This document shows positions 24,176 to 60,675 of a DNA stretch of 64,000 bases, piece by piece. Source of the DNA: Gaetbulibacter saemankumensis DSM 17032 (GTDB taxonomy: Bacteria > Bacteroidota > Bacteroidia > Flavobacteriales > Flavobacteriaceae); assembly GCF_000425645.1 (NCBI RefSeq), contig NZ_KE384430.1:372001-436000 (forward strand). Direction: 5' to 3'. Numbering within the stretch: position 1 is the stretch's first letter; the number at the start of each line of letters is the position of its first letter. Position numbers and translations under genes: made by a program. The notes below the pieces were generated by a model that did no database searches, was not told where the DNA came from, and worked only from the letters and a program-made list of their open reading frames with translations.

Positions 24176-24241
24176 CTATTTTTTGTTGAAATGACTTAGG
24201 CTTACCACGAGTTTATAATGAAAACCAGGTCTTAGGTATAT

Positions 24242-24323
24242 GCGTTAGCGATTGTAATGAAAATCCTTTTTGTTTTCTAACAAAAAGATTGAAATGTAAA
24301 GCGCGACCCGCAGGGGAACGCCC
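24242..24323. repeat. Structured intergenic repeat-like element
   Basis: An 82-bp stretch opens GCGTTAGCG and closes GGGAACGCCC; its ends can pair (GCGTT with AACGC). Inside is a perfect 9-bp hairpin, CTTTTTGTT/AACAAAAAG with a TTCT loop (24266-24287), and a G+C-rich CCCGCAGGGG hairpin near the right end. The overall plan matches an interspersed element that I recall from intergenic regions of many Flavobacteriaceae. Only one copy is seen here, so its repeat nature is from memory and not shown by the window. It fills the gap between pheS and the end of the 118-residue gene. Confidence 0.5.
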
Positions 24324-52971: not shown

Positions 52972-54870
52972 ATGAGCGACGCTTTAAAACACGAATGTGG
53001 TATAGCCATGATTAGGCTTTTAAAACCCTTAGAATATTATAAAGAAAAATACGGCAGTGCATTCTACGGTGTAAACAAAATGTATTTAATGATGGAAAAA
53101 CAGCACAACCGTGGACAAGACGGCGCTGGTTTTGCTAGTATTAAATTAAATACTAATCCTGGAGAACGTTATATAAGTAGAGTTCGCTCAATTGCTCAAC
53201 AGCCTATACAAGACATTTTTGCCCAAATAAACGACAGAATAAACAAGGAATTAACCGAGCATCCAGAATATACCGATAATGTTGCTTTACAGAAAAAAAA
53301 CATTCCATATATAGGAGAAGTATTATTAGGACATGTGCGTTATGGAACCTTTGGTAAAAATAGTGTGGAAAGTGTACACCCATTTTTAAGACAAAACAAC
53401 TGGATGCACAGAAACTTAATTATGGCCGGAAACTTTAACATGACTAATGTTAAGGAATTATTCGGAAATTTAATTGAGTTAGGTCAGCACCCAAAAGAAT
53501 ATACCGACACCATAACTATCATGGAAAAGATTGGTCATTTCTTAGATGATGCAGTAAGCAAAATTTACAAAGACCTAAAAAAAGAAGGCTATAACAAGCG
53601 TGAAGCTTCTCCTCTTATTGCCGAACGCCTTAAAGTTGCTAAAATTTTAAGAAGAGCTGCTAAAAACTGGGATGGCGGTTATGCTATGGCCGGTCTGATT
53701 GGTCATGGAGATTCTTTTGTCTTAAGAGACCCTGCGGGTATTCGTCCGGCATACTATTATAAAGACGACGAGATTGTTGTAGTTGCTTCAGAACGTCCAG
53801 TTATTCAAACGGTTTTCAATGTTAAATTTGAAGATGTTCAAGAATTAAAACCAGGACAAGCTATTATAACAAAAAAATCTGGCGAAGTAAGATTTAAACA
53901 AATATTAGAACCTTTAGAAAGAAAATCTTGTTCTTTCGAACGCATATATTTCTCTCGTGGTAGTGATGCTGAAATTTACCAAGAACGTAAAATGCTTGGT
54001 AAATTAGTAATGCCTGAAGTATTACAAGCTATAAATAATGACACTAAAAATACGGTGTTCTCATTTATTCCTAACACAGCTGAAACTTCGTTTTATGGGA
54101 TGGTAGAAACAGCCGAGGCCCACCTTAACGAGAGAAAAACAGCTGCCATACTAGATGGTCAACGTTCTTTATCCGCAGAAAAAGTAACAGAAATTTTATC
54201 GGAGCATATCCGTGTGGAAAAAATCGCAATTAAAGACGCTAAATTAAGAACCTTCATTACTGAAGATAGTAGTCGTGATGATTTAGTGGCACACGTTTAC
54301 GATATTACTTATGGTGTAATTAAGCCTGAAGACAATTTAGTTATAATAGACGATAGTATTGTTCGAGGTACAACGCTAAAGAAAAGTATTTTAAGAATGC
54401 TTGATCGCTTAGGGCCCAAACGAATTGTTGTTGTGTCTTCAGCACCACAAATTAGATACCCTGATTGTTACGGTATCGACATGGCAAACTTAGAGAGCTT
54501 AATTGCTTTTAGAGCTGCTTTAGAATTATTAAAAGATGCTGGTAATTACGGCATAGTTGAAGAAGTATACAAAAAATGTATCGAGCAAACCGATTTAGAC
54601 GATAAGCACGTACAGAACTTTGTAAAAGAAATATACGATCCGTTTACAGATGAACAAATATCTGATAAAATTGCTGAATTATTAAGTCCGGAAGACATTA
54701 ATGCAGAAGTAAAAATTATTTTCCAACCGGTTGAAAACCTACATAAAGCCTGCCCAGAACATCTGGGTGATTGGTACTTTACAGGTAACTACCCAACCAA
54801 CGGAGGTAATCGCGTTGTAAACCGTGCATTCATTAATTTTTACGAAGGCAACAACGAACGAGCCTATTAA
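52972..54870 (+). CDS. Large PurF-like amidophosphoribosyltransferase
   Basis: The 632-residue protein has a class II glutamine amidotransferase domain with Cys9 as nucleophile (HECGIAM); this implies removal of the first 8 residues, as in PurF maturation. A phosphoribosyltransferase domain follows, with PRPP loop VIIDDSIVRGTT at 457-468. PurF makes phosphoribosylamine, the first committed purine step. This version is about 130 residues longer than usual PurF (about 470-510): a helical insertion lies near 190-230 and the C-terminal part (540-632) is extended. I believe such long forms occur in Bacteroidota in addition to a standard PurF; only this one is seen here. It is the last gene before the tandem sRNA region. 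Confidence 0.88.
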   Translation: MSDALKHECGIAMIRLLKPLEYYKEKYGSAFYGVNKMYLMMEKQHNRGQDGAGFASIKLNTNPGERYISRVRSIAQQPIQDIFAQINDRINKELTEHPEYTDNVALQKKNIPYIGEVLLGHVRYGTFGKNSVESVHPFLRQNNWMHRNLIMAGNFNMTNVKELFGNLIELGQHPKEYTDTITIMEKIGHFLDDAVSKIYKDLKKEGYNKREASPLIAERLKVAKILRRAAKNWDGGYAMAGLIGHGDSFVLRDPAGIRPAYYYKDDEIVVVASERPVIQTVFNVKFEDVQELKPGQAIITKKSGEVRFKQILEPLERKSCSFERIYFSRGSDAEIYQERKMLGKLVMPEVLQAINNDTKNTVFSFIPNTAETSFYGMVETAEAHLNERKTAAILDGQRSLSAEKVTEILSEHIRVEKIAIKDAKLRTFITEDSSRDDLVAHVYDITYGVIKPEDNLVIIDDSIVRGTTLKKSILRMLDRLGPKRIVVVSSAPQIRYPDCYGIDMANLESLIAFRAALELLKDAGNYGIVEEVYKKCIEQTDLDDKHVQNFVKEIYDPFTDEQISDKIAELLSPEDINAEVKIIFQPVENLHKACPEHLGDWYFTGNYPTNGGNRVVNRAFINFYEGNNERAY

Positions 54871-55007
54871 TTGATAATATATCAATAAACTATAAGAAAA
54901 ATTAGACTAAATGCATTTTAAAAAATTCGGATTTACATTTCATCCAATATAAATGCATTTTATCTAAAAAAAAACCGGATTACTCTTATTTAGAGTAATT
55001 TAGAGCC

Positions 55008-55080
55008 ACCATAACATAAGTAGGTTAAGTTCATGGTAGATTTGGGGCAAAAAAAGGTGAACTCTTGTTCGCCTTTTTTT
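55008..55080 (+). ncRNA. Candidate small RNA, copy 1
   Basis: A 73-nt unit with a 5' hairpin: ACCAT pairs with ATGGT and AAC with GTT around a 13-nt loop, with one bulged C at 55032. A linker AGATTTGGGGC plus A-run follows, then a terminator hairpin (GGTGAAC/GTTCGCC, loop TCTT) and seven T. A TAATTTAG box (54996-55003), one mismatch from TANNTTTG, lies 4 nt before the unit, placing transcription start at about its first base. The core is nearly identical to copy 2. The family is not recognised; a known flavobacterial motif such as Flavo-1 cannot be excluded without a covariance search. Confidence 0.7.
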
Positions 55081-55140
55081 ATGGCATAAACTGAACTAAA
55101 TAAATCTACTCGATTTTCTAAAAAACCTTCTTCTAAACCC

Positions 55141-55166
55141 ATTTATTAGTCGTTTAACTAATAAAT
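55141..55166. repeat. Perfect 10-bp inverted repeat between the two sRNA units
   Basis: The arms ATTTATTAGT and ACTAATAAAT flank CGTTTA. Very A/T-rich. It could be a regulator site for copy 2 or a weak terminator; no run of T follows that fits either strand well. Confidence 0.5.
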
Positions 55167-55201
55167 TTTAGCAAAATAAATTCTCAATATATTTTAGCAG
55201 A

Positions 55202-55270
55202 ACCATAACATAAGTAGGTTAAGTTTATGGTAGATTTGGGGCAAAAAGGTGAACTAACGTTCACCTTTTT
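55202..55270 (+). ncRNA. Candidate small RNA, copy 2
   Basis: A 69-nt unit with the same layout as copy 1. The first 46 bases differ by one substitution, T for C at the bulged position of the 5' hairpin. The A-run is shorter by two. The terminator is GGTGAAC/GTTCACC with loop TAAC, where a G-U pair of copy 1 becomes an A-U pair. A TATTTTAG box (55190-55197) lies at exactly the same 4-nt distance from the unit as in copy 1. Conservation of structure and of the single-stranded linker supports an RNA function. Confidence 0.7.
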
Positions 55271-55348: not shown

Positions 55349-55957
55349 TTATTTAGCCGCAGCATAACGTCTTTCAGCTTCATTCCAGTTTACTACATTA
55401 AAGAAGGCTTTAATATAATCTGGACGACGGTTTTGATAGTTTAAGTAATAAGCATGCTCCCAAACATCAAGACCCAAAATAGGAGTTCCTCCGCAACCAA
55501 CACCTGGCATTAATGGATTATCTTGATTAGGTGTAGAACAAATATCTACTTTACCTCCTTCGTGCACACACAACCAAGCCCATCCAGACCCAAAACGTGT
55601 TGCAGCTGCCTTACTGAAAGCTTCCACAAACGCATCTTTAGAACCAAAAGCTGCTTCGATTGCATCTTTTAGTTCTCCGGATAAATACCCTCTATCTTCT
55701 GGATTCATTACTGTCCAGAATAATGAGTGATTATAAAATCCACCTCCATTATTTCTAACAGCAGCATTGTTCATATCTAAATTAGTAAGAATATCTTCAA
55801 TAGATTTCCCCTCTAAGTCAGTTCCTTCAATTGCATTATTTAAGTTATTAGTATATCCTTGGTGATGTTTAGTATGGTGTATCTCCATAGTACGAGCATC
55901 CATATGAGGTTCTAAAGCATCATAAGCATATCCTAATTCTGGTAATTCAAAAGCCAT
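55349..55957 (-). CDS. sodA: Superoxide dismutase, Fe/Mn family (Mn-type features)
   Basis: This cytoplasmic enzyme converts superoxide to oxygen and peroxide. The 202-residue protein has the metal ligands His27 ([10 protein letters not shown]), His77 (YNHSLFW), Asp164 and His168 ([12 protein letters not shown]). Gly at the position before the NHSLFW strand (NNGGGF) and Gln in TPNQDNPLM are features of the Mn rather than the Fe type. No signal peptide is visible. A TAAATTTG promoter box lies 38 bp upstream, and a terminator follows. Confidence 0.95.
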
Positions 55958-59216: not shown

Positions 59217-59310
59217 TTCTTACATATTGTTACAATATTTCACTTTATCGGTTATTATTGTCATTTTGTCGAATTAATATGATTCATCTTTCAGAAAAGT
59301 TGTAAAGATG

Positions 59311-59355: not shown

Positions 59356-60675
59356 ATGAAAAAATTAATTACACTATTTTTTGCTTTTGTTATTGTAGGT
59401 TTAAGCAGCCTAAACGCTCAAGATGCTAATAATCCTTGGTTAATAGGGATAGGCGTAAATGCAGTAGACAGTTATCCAACAAATGTTGGAGACAGCAATT
59501 TCCCAGGCCAGAGTACTTGGTTTGATGAGTATTTCAACGCTACAGATCATTGGAATATTTTACCATTCCCTTCATCAGTTTCTGTATCACGTTACTTAGG
59601 AAGTAACTTTTCTGCTGGTATTTTTGGTTCTGTAAATAAAATTACCAAAGTTGGGGACGCATCAACTTATTCAGGAAAATCAATCAACGACTTTTCATAT
59701 TATGGTGTTGATGGTTTTTTCAAGTACAGCTTTGCTCAATTAATTAATTCAGAAAGCTTTGAACCATTTATTAAAATTGGAGGAGGTTACTCTTGGATTG
59801 ATAAAATTGGTGCTGGTACCGTTAATGGAGGTCTTGGATTTAACTGGTTTTTCACTAACAAGAAAAACATCGGATTAAACGTACAATCTACTTACAAACA
59901 TGCGTTTGAAGATTATTTAATTCCTCATTTCCAACACAACGTAGGTATTACGTTCAAATTAGGATCTAAAGACACTGATAAAGATGGCATTAAAGACAAA
60001 GATGATGCTTGTCCAGAAGTACCTGGTTTACCTGAATTTAATGGTTGTCCAGATTCTGATGGCGATGGTGTTCAAGACAGCGAAGATGAATGTCCTGAAG
60101 TTGCTGGTTTACCAGAATTTAACGGTTGTCCTGACACAGATGGTGATGGCATAGCTGATAAAGATGACAGATGTCCTAAGGTAGCAGGATTAAAAGAACT
60201 TAATGGTTGTCCAGATTCTGATGGTGATGGTATTGCTGATATCGATGACAAATGTCCTAACGAAAAAGGAACTGCAGCAAATAATGGTTGCCCTGAAGTT
60301 GAAGTTGACAATACTCAAGATTTAATCGACGCCTTAGCGAAGACTATTTTCTTTGAATTTGACAGTGCTGAATTAACCCCTGAAAATCAAATTACTTTAA
60401 ATAAAATTGCTGATTTAATTGAGCAAAACAATAAAGTATATAACTTAACAATCGAAGGTTATGCTGACAACGTAGGTGCTAAATCTTACAACCAGACTTT
60501 ATCTGAAAGAAGAGCTCAAGCTGTTGCAGATTATCTAACAAGAACAGGTGTTACTCCTGAAAATGTTTCAACAGTAGGTTACGGTGAAGAAAATCCTGTA
60601 GCCGCTAATAACACTAAAGAAGGAAGAGCACAGAACAGACGAAGTGAAGTAAAAATTAAGGTTACTTCTAAATAA
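59356..60675 (+). CDS. OmpA family outer-membrane protein with four TSP3 repeats
   Basis: The 439-residue protein has a signal peptide (cleavage near NA-Q, residue 22) and an N-terminal beta-barrel-like domain (about 22-200). Four calcium-binding thrombospondin type 3 repeats follow (about 205-320, each with a DxDGDG-type core and a Cys-Pro pair). A C-terminal OmpA peptidoglycan-binding domain follows (about 325-439; IFFEFDSAELTPENQ and the LSERRAQAVADYL helix). It ties the outer membrane to the cell wall. It is similar end to end to the next gene, so the pair arose by duplication, and each has its own promoter and terminator. Confidence 0.93.
   Translation: MKKLITLFFAFVIVGLSSLNAQDANNPWLIGIGVNAVDSYPTNVGDSNFPGQSTWFDEYFNATDHWNILPFPSSVSVSRYLGSNFSAGIFGSVNKITKVGDASTYSGKSINDFSYYGVDGFFKYSFAQLINSESFEPFIKIGGGYSWIDKIGAGTVNGGLGFNWFFTNKKNIGLNVQSTYKHAFEDYLIPHFQHNVGITFKLGSKDTDKDGIKDKDDACPEVPGLPEFNGCPDSDGDGVQDSEDECPEVAGLPEFNGCPDTDGDGIADKDDRCPKVAGLKELNGCPDSDGDGIADIDDKCPNEKGTAANNGCPEVEVDNTQDLIDALAKTIFFEFDSAELTPENQITLNKIADLIEQNNKVYNLTIEGYADNVGAKSYNQTLSERRAQAVADYLTRTGVTPENVSTVGYGEENPVAANNTKEGRAQNRRSEVKIKVTSK

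Follow-up and report, generated by a model that had tools for sequence, protein, structure and literature searches.

In Gaetbulibacter saemankumensis DSM 17032, two near-identical units separate a purF-like gene from a superoxide dismutase gene and are best read as paralogous trans-acting sRNAs repressing a co-regulated small protein. We assign this reading a probability of about 0.62, and both the expression of the RNAs and the repression remain unproven. It rests on the anatomy of the genes, their conservation in the Flavobacteriaceae, the complementarity to the mRNA of a predicted partner and an operator that sRNA and partner genes share, all of which are features of the DNA sequence. The window, i.e., the whole stretch of DNA that was analyzed, comprises 64,000 nucleotides (contig NZ_KE384430.1, positions 372,001 to 436,000), and coordinates below refer to the window unless a contig is given.

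Anatomy of the Putative sRNA Genes

Both units lie on the + strand, between the purF-like gene (52972..54870, +), which encodes a glutamine amidotransferase domain (Pfam), and the convergent gene for an iron/manganese superoxide dismutase (55349..55957, - strand). Copy 1 (55008..55080, +; predicted RNA of ~73 nt) starts with ACCATAAC at 55008 and ends with its T-run at 55080, and copy 2 (predicted RNA of ~69 nt) occupies 55202..55270 (+). Each consists, in this order, of a 30-nt hairpin, the linker AGATTTGGGGC and an intrinsic terminator. In copy 1 these parts correspond to 55008..55037 (+; 11 pairs), 55038..55048 (+) and 55049..55080 (+), while the linker of copy 2 lies at 55232..55242 (+). 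The linker is unpaired in the MFE folds of both copies, and the T-run of both terminators belongs to an A/U-extended stem. From ACC to GGGGC, a stretch of 41 nt, the copies differ only at C55032/T55226, in the bulge of the 5' hairpin, and a U-G pair in the terminator of copy 1 has become U-A in copy 2. A promoter-like box ends 4 nt before ACC in both. The first-pass annotation had described two near-identical tandem units with a box and a terminator each, a shared core with one substitution at a bulge, an unpaired linker, a terminator G-U pair replaced by A-U and a box at identical distance, and all of these features were recovered.

As whole units the copies fold with z-scores of -3.99 (copy 1) and -4.05 (copy 2), and none of 200 dinucleotide shuffles was as stable. 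The 5' hairpin alone is unexceptional (z -1.95 and -1.54, with 10/200 and 16/200 shuffles equally stable), so that much of the excess stability of the whole unit is due to the terminator. The 18-nt linker motif was found twice in the window, against a mean of 0.10 expected by chance (at most three mismatches). Generic scans did not pick up the units: no sigma-70-type promoter was predicted on the + strand at their positions, and the terminator scan listed neither of their terminators, only one on the - strand there.

Putative Transcription Signals

The -7 boxes of the two copies are TAATTTAG (54996..55003, +) and TATTTTAG (55190..55197, +), each with one mismatch to TAnnTTTG. To see how general this is, it is useful to consider the promoters of 225 non-redundant copies from 135 loci, two of which were left out for want of a recognizable stem start. 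A box with at most one mismatch to TAnnTTTG precedes 211 of the remaining 223 copies (best of nine positions), and in 166 cases 4 nt separate the best box from the stem. In Flavobacterium psychrophilum, a mapping study places the TAnnTTTG box at -12 to -5 (PMC9723704), and transcription should therefore start at ACC. No -33 element was seen in the promoters of the 223 copies. SM6 promoters were considered and rejected, having an ECF-type CGT box that is unlike the box of the units (PMC9723704).

Further upstream lies a predicted direct-repeat operator composed of two copies of a motif close to CnkTTnAnCnAA, near -72 and -52 from the stem. When each half was fitted within a 13-position range, the halves were 20 bp apart in 188/223 copies. 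With a score threshold, 91 repeat pairs were found at 20 bp and 14 at 21 bp, and none in 20 mononucleotide shuffles. In copy 1 the distal half CATTTCATCCAAT (54936..54948, +; PWM 13.3) and the proximal half CATTTTATCTAAA (54956..54968, +; PWM 11.8) are exactly 20 bp apart. Copy 2 has a proximal half TCGTTTAACTAAT (55150..55162, +; PWM 10.3) and a weak distal half, with a best PWM score of 2.7 compared to 13.3 for copy 1. LytTR operators, a possible counterpart, have a consensus of 9-bp half-sites 21-22 bp apart; the half-site described here is partly alike by eye only, and its spacing is mostly 20 bp. TAACTGA heptamer repeats were discarded as a counterpart, these being head-to-tail heptamers located mostly beside start codons (PMC4679880). 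With a promoter-like box and an intrinsic terminator of their own, the units meet a criterion for trans-acting sRNAs, as judged by sequence alone.

Distribution and Covariation

A 29-nt core with one free position is present without mismatch in 102 of 199 sampled Flavobacteriaceae genomes (one per genus), and a reversed control gave no match. Among the matches listed, the named carriers include Winogradskyella, Algibacter, Tamlana, Lacinutrix, Aquimarina, Christiangramia, Aequorivita, Salinimicrobium, and Flavobacterium. Two or more copies of the core occur in 69 of the 102 genomes, often ~200 nt apart, and the source genome contains a third copy (G000:C1:905073), whose terminator stem differs by compensatory changes. 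Allowing three mismatches raises the number of genomes to 104, at least one extra match (G034:C1:1254507) being the leader of the partner on the other strand. In 26 of 30 loci of 3 kb from relatives, the copies have the purF-like gene on one side and the dismutase gene on the other.

A covariance model was built from 48 copies, on which copies 1 and 2 score 98.2 and 92.3 bits, and was searched with stricter filters in 246 genomes of the order. It reached at least 61.9 bits in 32 genomes, all of them Flavobacteriaceae, with the next best match at 36.9 bits; only weak matches were obtained in 24 further genomes, 23 of which belong to other families. The absence from relatives that, according to the first-pass annotation, would have argued against an RNA was thus not encountered, neither with the exact core nor with the model. 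The model also finds the RNA where the core pattern misses it, namely in the genomes G001, G032, G159, and G175, as well as in many genomes of the large genus g128, which by inference is probably Flavobacterium. Strong matches number six in G001 and at most five per genome in g128. Since the core pattern served to retrieve most copies, part of the near-invariance of the core is an effect of sampling; in copies taken from loci fetched by the covariance model the exact core is found in only 31 of 65. Likewise, the linker AGATTTGGGGC shows no variation in the 48 aligned copies, and it was itself part of the pattern used to collect them.

The two helices differ in how they vary. In the terminator helix, five of 14 pairs have changed on both sides among the 48 copies, which none of 500 shuffles attains. 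The 5' helix is paired in 99.4% of cells in the same copies, 7 of its 11 pairs never vary, and no pair shows changes on both sides, hence no two-sided covariation. A small peptide encoded in the sRNA itself (ATGGTAGATTTGGGGCA...) was considered and rejected: the A-run that follows is 5, 6 or 7 long and shifts the frame, so that no stable reading frame exists.

Some copies deviate from this general picture. In L009, L018, L034, and L036 (CATAGCAT or CATTAGCAT lineage) the complement of the linker, full or partial (e.g., GCCCCAAATC), directly follows the T-run of the terminator, which gives a longer inverted repeat in the DNA. Repeated elements with a GGTAGATTTGGGG linker and different flanks occur in one genome (G007; L223, L230), and another (G005) has, outside the main locus, variant sRNA copies with a linker ending in GGGTA and not in GGGGC (L391, L392).

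A Small ORF as the Predicted Partner

Outside the sRNA genes, a search for the complement of the linker in 40 genomes returned pairs of sites ~40 bp apart in four genomes. The paired sites, as well as some single sites, fall at the start of a 41-42-aa ORF, with MNIATNLPEQPTNDESKFKETLKENLQFLKSLVYLTKKIFML as a typical sequence. A profile of six seed ORFs detected this ORF at E<1e-3 in 79 of the 199 family genomes (six being the seeds), some matches covering the C-terminal half only. The source genome is among them: its ORF, unannotated and located at 689142-689267 of contig C1, was found by the profile and missed by the linker-complement search. The ORF lies downstream of a CoA-transferase gene in the eight loci inspected, and at the loci inspected an oligopeptide-type ABC ATPase gene mostly faces it in convergent orientation. 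Neither Pfam nor NCBIfam gave a significant match (one member at chance level, Pfam E 0.16), and a PDB sequence search with the small protein returned weak matches only, the best at E 0.014. The sRNA and the ORF occur together in 77 of the 199 genomes, with 25 genomes having the sRNA only, 2 the ORF only and 95 neither (Fisher p 3e-30, uncorrected for phylogeny). In one of the ORF-only genomes (G015), an sRNA-like copy exists that has diverged but retains the linker (L218).

The partner mRNA carries two long sites that are complementary to the sRNA, the first spanning the start codon and the second within codons ~5-12. The region of the sRNA predicted to be involved comprises the 3' side of the hairpin plus the linker (GUAGGUUAAGUUYAUGGUAGAUUUGGGGC). 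The GGGGC linker had been proposed earlier as the recognition part; it does take part in the predicted pairing, together with the 3' side of the hairpin. Duplexes were predicted between the first 46 nt of copy 1 and the leader plus first 15 codons of the ORF at 28 of 30 fetched ORF loci (the ORF of L257 was not located and the start of L236 was outside the range), five of the 28 having been found by complementarity. At all 28 loci the duplex, at -33.7 to -52.7 kcal/mol, is more stable than every one of 200 dinucleotide shuffles. In the source genome, the leader site and the ORF site yield -34.5 and -37.5 kcal/mol. Net binding to the partner of the own genome, from which the folds of both RNAs were subtracted, amounts to -27.2 kcal/mol, compared to -15.6 kcal/mol at best (mean -6.5) among 51 ORF leaders of the window and -26.1 kcal/mol at best among 200 shuffles. 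The pairing site contains a leucine codon, which is CTA in 29/29 ORFs, whereas CTA is used in 33/155 cases at other leucines (29 of the 30 fetched ORF loci, without L257; 6 of the 29 are seeds).

A genome-wide view is less clear-cut. In six ORF-carrying genomes searched with 20-mer complements, the partner was the best non-self match in G000, G034, and G154, tied for first place in G115, came second to a single better site in G014 and went undetected in G174; a reversed control yielded similar numbers of 3-mismatch matches. Conserved complementarity to a trans-encoded mRNA above chance, as seen at the fetched loci, meets a criterion of trans-acting base-pairing sRNAs. The proposal of the first-pass annotation that the units are trans-acting sRNAs is hence supported by the box, the compensatory changes in the terminator, the conserved core, the lack of a stable reading frame and of an Rfam match at cutoff, and the predicted partner, with transcription itself unobserved.

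Further Genes behind the Operator and a Candidate Regulator

A model of the operator trained on the sRNA promoters alone, with 16 spacings allowed, places the best repeat pair upstream of 29/29 partner ORFs at a spacing of 20 (26 ORFs) or 21 bp (3 ORFs). The scores exceed the best of 1000 shuffles for 19 of the 29 and fail to do so for the other 10. A comparable score at spacing 20-21 was seen at only 2 of 51 ordinary ORFs of the window, one of which belongs to the OmpA family. Just two repeat pairs in the window have a summed score of at least 15 at this spacing, that of copy 1 and a second strong operator-like pair with 21-bp spacing at 59241..59274 (+; PWM pair score 23.5), behind which lies the OmpA-family gene (59356..60675, +). 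This gene is a weak candidate for a second target of the sRNA. Its leader forms, by a narrow margin, the best duplex of the 51 window leaders (-26.7 vs. -25.7 kcal/mol for the next), and 0.7% of 300 shuffles reach -26.7 kcal/mol.

The operator is also present upstream of a histidine-phosphatase gene followed by a polyphosphate kinase gene in 6/6 genomes searched. The phosphatase is SixA-like by eye, and Pfam was run on the pair of the source genome. At the phosphatase loci L281, L282, L283, L284, L309, and L317, two or three operator repeats in 20-bp steps stand just before the start codon.

The operator likewise precedes operons encoding a TPR histidine kinase and a response regulator, with a spacing of 20-21 bp in 19 of 23 operons. 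Three of the 23 were found via the operator itself; among the 20 not chosen in this way the spacing holds in 16. Operator scores were not above the best of 20 shuffles in 3/23. In many cases the kinase and regulator genes are preceded by an ORF for a lipoprotein of 46-56 aa, recognized by a script in 13/20, which might be a signal or sensor partner of the TPR histidine kinase. The lipoproteins of L323:860-1006 (G000:C1:911659-911805), L324, and L325 are 48-56 aa long and have a conserved SCTKQDLNEDD-like start.

The response regulator, which is encoded at G000:C1:913935-914606 in the source genome and has a GerE/LuxR-like region below the Pfam cutoff, was detected at E 1e-60 or better in 78/199 genomes. 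It occurs together with the sRNA in 72 genomes, while 30 have the sRNA only, 6 the regulator only and 91 neither. Because its operon carries the operator and because it co-occurs with the sRNA, it is a candidate activator of both sRNA and ORF. We give this assignment about one chance in three, since the link is weakened by operator-bearing sRNA genes that exist without a close regulator and by the presence of the operator at other genes.

Alternative Readings

Many genomes have the sRNA without a recognizable partner ORF. None of the 25 exact-core genomes concerned gave a convincing ORF with a 29-row profile (best E 0.003), and no convincing ORF was seen either in at least four more genomes (G001, G032, G159, G175), in which only the covariance model finds the RNA and which bring the sRNA-only genomes to at least 29, or in five further g128 genomes. 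Applied to 36 ORF-less genomes, the 29-row profile gave weak matches at E<=0.1 in 12 (best 0.003), and the 20-mer complement search revealed no partner ORF in 22 ORF-less genomes. As no convincing ORF is found there, the RNA must have another role in these genomes. In g128, two complement matches with 1-2 mismatches are located inside one long ORF that is conserved (L380, L381); other complement matches, of a recurrent CCAAATTTCCCAGAAACTTA type, fall in a shared stretch.

These genomes bear on the question of whether the small-ORF transcript acts mainly as a sponge, whose tandem sites titrate the sRNA off other mRNAs with the peptide being secondary. We regard this as a serious rival, if an unlikely one. 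The transcripts offer two or three tandem anti-sRNA sites each (three in L214, by eye), and the sites can outlive the ORF: G196 (L376) has kept the operator, the promoter box and two 20-nt sites without an ATG-started ORF of at least 25 codons, and G005 (L215) has kept exact sites with the ORF cut to 25 aa, a state more in keeping with a sponge than with a target. An sRNA that exists without a recognizable ORF in many genomes should, moreover, have other targets. However, the coding sequence is not free to drift. In the 22 of 29 ORFs that form the ungapped 42-aa class, third-position diversity is 0.12 in the pairing codons 5-12 and 0.41 in codons 13-42, where position-2 diversity is 0.11. Third positions are quiet in codons 5-12 and position 2 is conserved later, so that constraint from pairing and from coding are both visible, the latter clearly so outside the pairing codons. 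In addition, one of the sites covers the start codon, a position typical of translational repression.

If the ~42-aa peptide were toxic and the sRNA its antitoxin, the pair would resemble a type I toxin-antitoxin system, an idea that infers the toxicity and that we consider improbable. Known pairs such as TisB/IstR-1 and ZorO/OrzO involve a trans-encoded RNA with long complementarity to the mRNA of a small ORF. The extended antisense pairing of such systems is present here, i.e., a small peptide and an sRNA that is encoded in several copies and complementary to the start site over at least ~20 nt. The hydrophobic, membrane-spanning peptide is missing: the maximum 19-residue Kyte-Doolittle mean is 0.32-0.72 in five sequences, compared to a usual threshold for membrane spans of ~1.6, and no stretch is transmembrane-like. 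With a moment of 0.49-0.64 in five sequences, the peptide is amphipathic, and by hydropathy it does not span the membrane, which makes a toxin less likely. The studied pair further differs from these systems in that one operator is common to both genes, in the constant chromosomal place behind the CoA-transferase gene in the eight loci looked at, and in the persistence of the sRNA without the peptide.

Similarly poor prospects are given to an RNA that chiefly binds a protein, of the RbpB type or another, with the core as protein site and base pairing as a secondary matter. The strong sequence conservation of the paired region, even where no partner ORF was found, would fit this. In g128, however, CATTAGTAGG replaces CATAAGTAGG on one side of the stem and the 3' side is mostly fixed, as expected for a seed, and the way in which codons of the partner are constrained indicates that pairing is under selection. 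Finally, it is hardly tenable that there is no independent RNA and that the units are merely terminators in repeated form, the 3' ends of the purF-like transcript or a repeat in the DNA. The purF-like gene does precede the copies at most loci inspected. However, nearly all copies have their own box at a near-fixed distance and most an operator too, copies exist away from that gene (L003, L022), and the terminators change in a compensatory manner with the core being kept.

Relation to Known sRNAs

A scan of both units against Rfam gave no family at the gathering cutoff. In a permissive search the best model was STnc40 (RF02057) with 25.4 bits against a cutoff of 45, and the FopS model (RF04319) scored 20.0 bits on copy 1 against a cutoff of 56. 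Flavo-1 (RF01705, cutoff 42 bits) does not match the units. A match to a known family, Flavo-1 included, would, according to the first-pass annotation, have taken away the novelty, and none reached its cutoff. The sole Flavo-1 RNA of the window lies at 24236-24312 and scores 59.1 bits.

For Qrr and LhrC, multiple gene copies of almost the same sequence exist, and every copy has a regulated promoter of its own; their regulators and targets are others. The RNA studied here resembles them in having near-identical copies with a regulated promoter each. Qrr of Vibrio and LhrC of Listeria are named as multicopy regulated sRNAs in a study on Bacteroides thetaiotaomicron (PMC11697453). In that organism, which belongs to the same phylum, the FopS and GibS sRNAs are also multicopy, paralogous and ~65-70 nt long, and they act at translation start regions, as predicted for the flavobacterial RNA; FopS (RF04319 BTncRNA_FopS) targets susC-type mRNAs (PMC11697453). 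FopS nevertheless differs from the flavobacterial RNA in core, linker, genomic site and partner, in line with its 20 bits.

In F. psychrophilum, Rfp18 and other Rfp RNAs have been described, likewise conserved flavobacterial sRNAs, and 85 RNAs are listed in that study (PMC9723704). A homologue of the studied RNA may figure among the 85, and expression in F. psychrophilum may already be on record without a function. Rfp18 is said to pair via its third stem-loop, whereas the studied RNA has two stem-loops, and neither purF nor sodA is present in the main text (PMC9723704). Searches of the open-licence literature for the RNA's sequence strings, for flavobacterial sRNAs and for Rfp18 gave no description of the RNA among the matches listed; the sequence strings had one chance match, in a paper on papillomavirus typing. 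The RNA family of flavobacteria is apparently undescribed so far. It works like other multicopy base-pairing sRNAs but belongs to none that could be compared here. What we regard as new is an sRNA family with a dedicated, co-regulated small-ORF partner and tandem sites that reach into the coding sequence.

Proposed Mechanism and Implications

For the preferred reading, repression of the small protein by the paralogous sRNAs, the following course of events can be envisaged. An activator, for which the response regulator of the operator-carrying operon is the candidate, would switch on the ORF along with the sRNA copies. The sRNA would then open its hairpin and pair with the leader through the 3' side of the hairpin and the linker. 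Pairing is predicted to cover the ribosome-entry region and to block translation of the small protein, and would probably destabilize the partner mRNA as well. Repression is the likeliest outcome because the two sites together cover the ribosome-entry region. Such an arrangement would be an incoherent feed-forward loop, giving a pulse or a threshold, in which the copy number of the sRNA sets the dose. Effects on other mRNAs, e.g., that of the nearby OmpA-family gene, are possible. That sRNA and ORF are activated together, that the two RNAs pair in the cell, that the start region is occluded and that the small protein is repressed is all inferred.

A more far-reaching version, which we put forward as a tentative idea only, is a two-RNA switch that operates throughout the family. 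One to six almost identical sRNA copies and the small-ORF mRNA, whose genes lie far from each other, would be placed under one direct-repeat operator and one kinase-regulator system and, by binding through the tandem sites, each would limit the other, the leader sponging the sRNA and the sRNA silencing the peptide; in some lineages the ORF would have been lost and the RNA-RNA part kept.

To our knowledge, as well as from the literature searched, few sRNAs of Flavobacteriaceae have a known partner. The RNA described here comes with a predicted mRNA partner, binding sites, an operator and a candidate regulator, and its exact core is found in about half of the genera sampled. The partner represents a family of small proteins to which neither Pfam nor NCBIfam has a significant match and which is present in 79/199 genera sampled, and its first codons appear to be constrained by RNA pairing and protein sequence alike. 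If the switch were true, it would provide a threshold response for a regulon that includes the histidine-phosphatase/polyphosphate-kinase pair and surface proteins.
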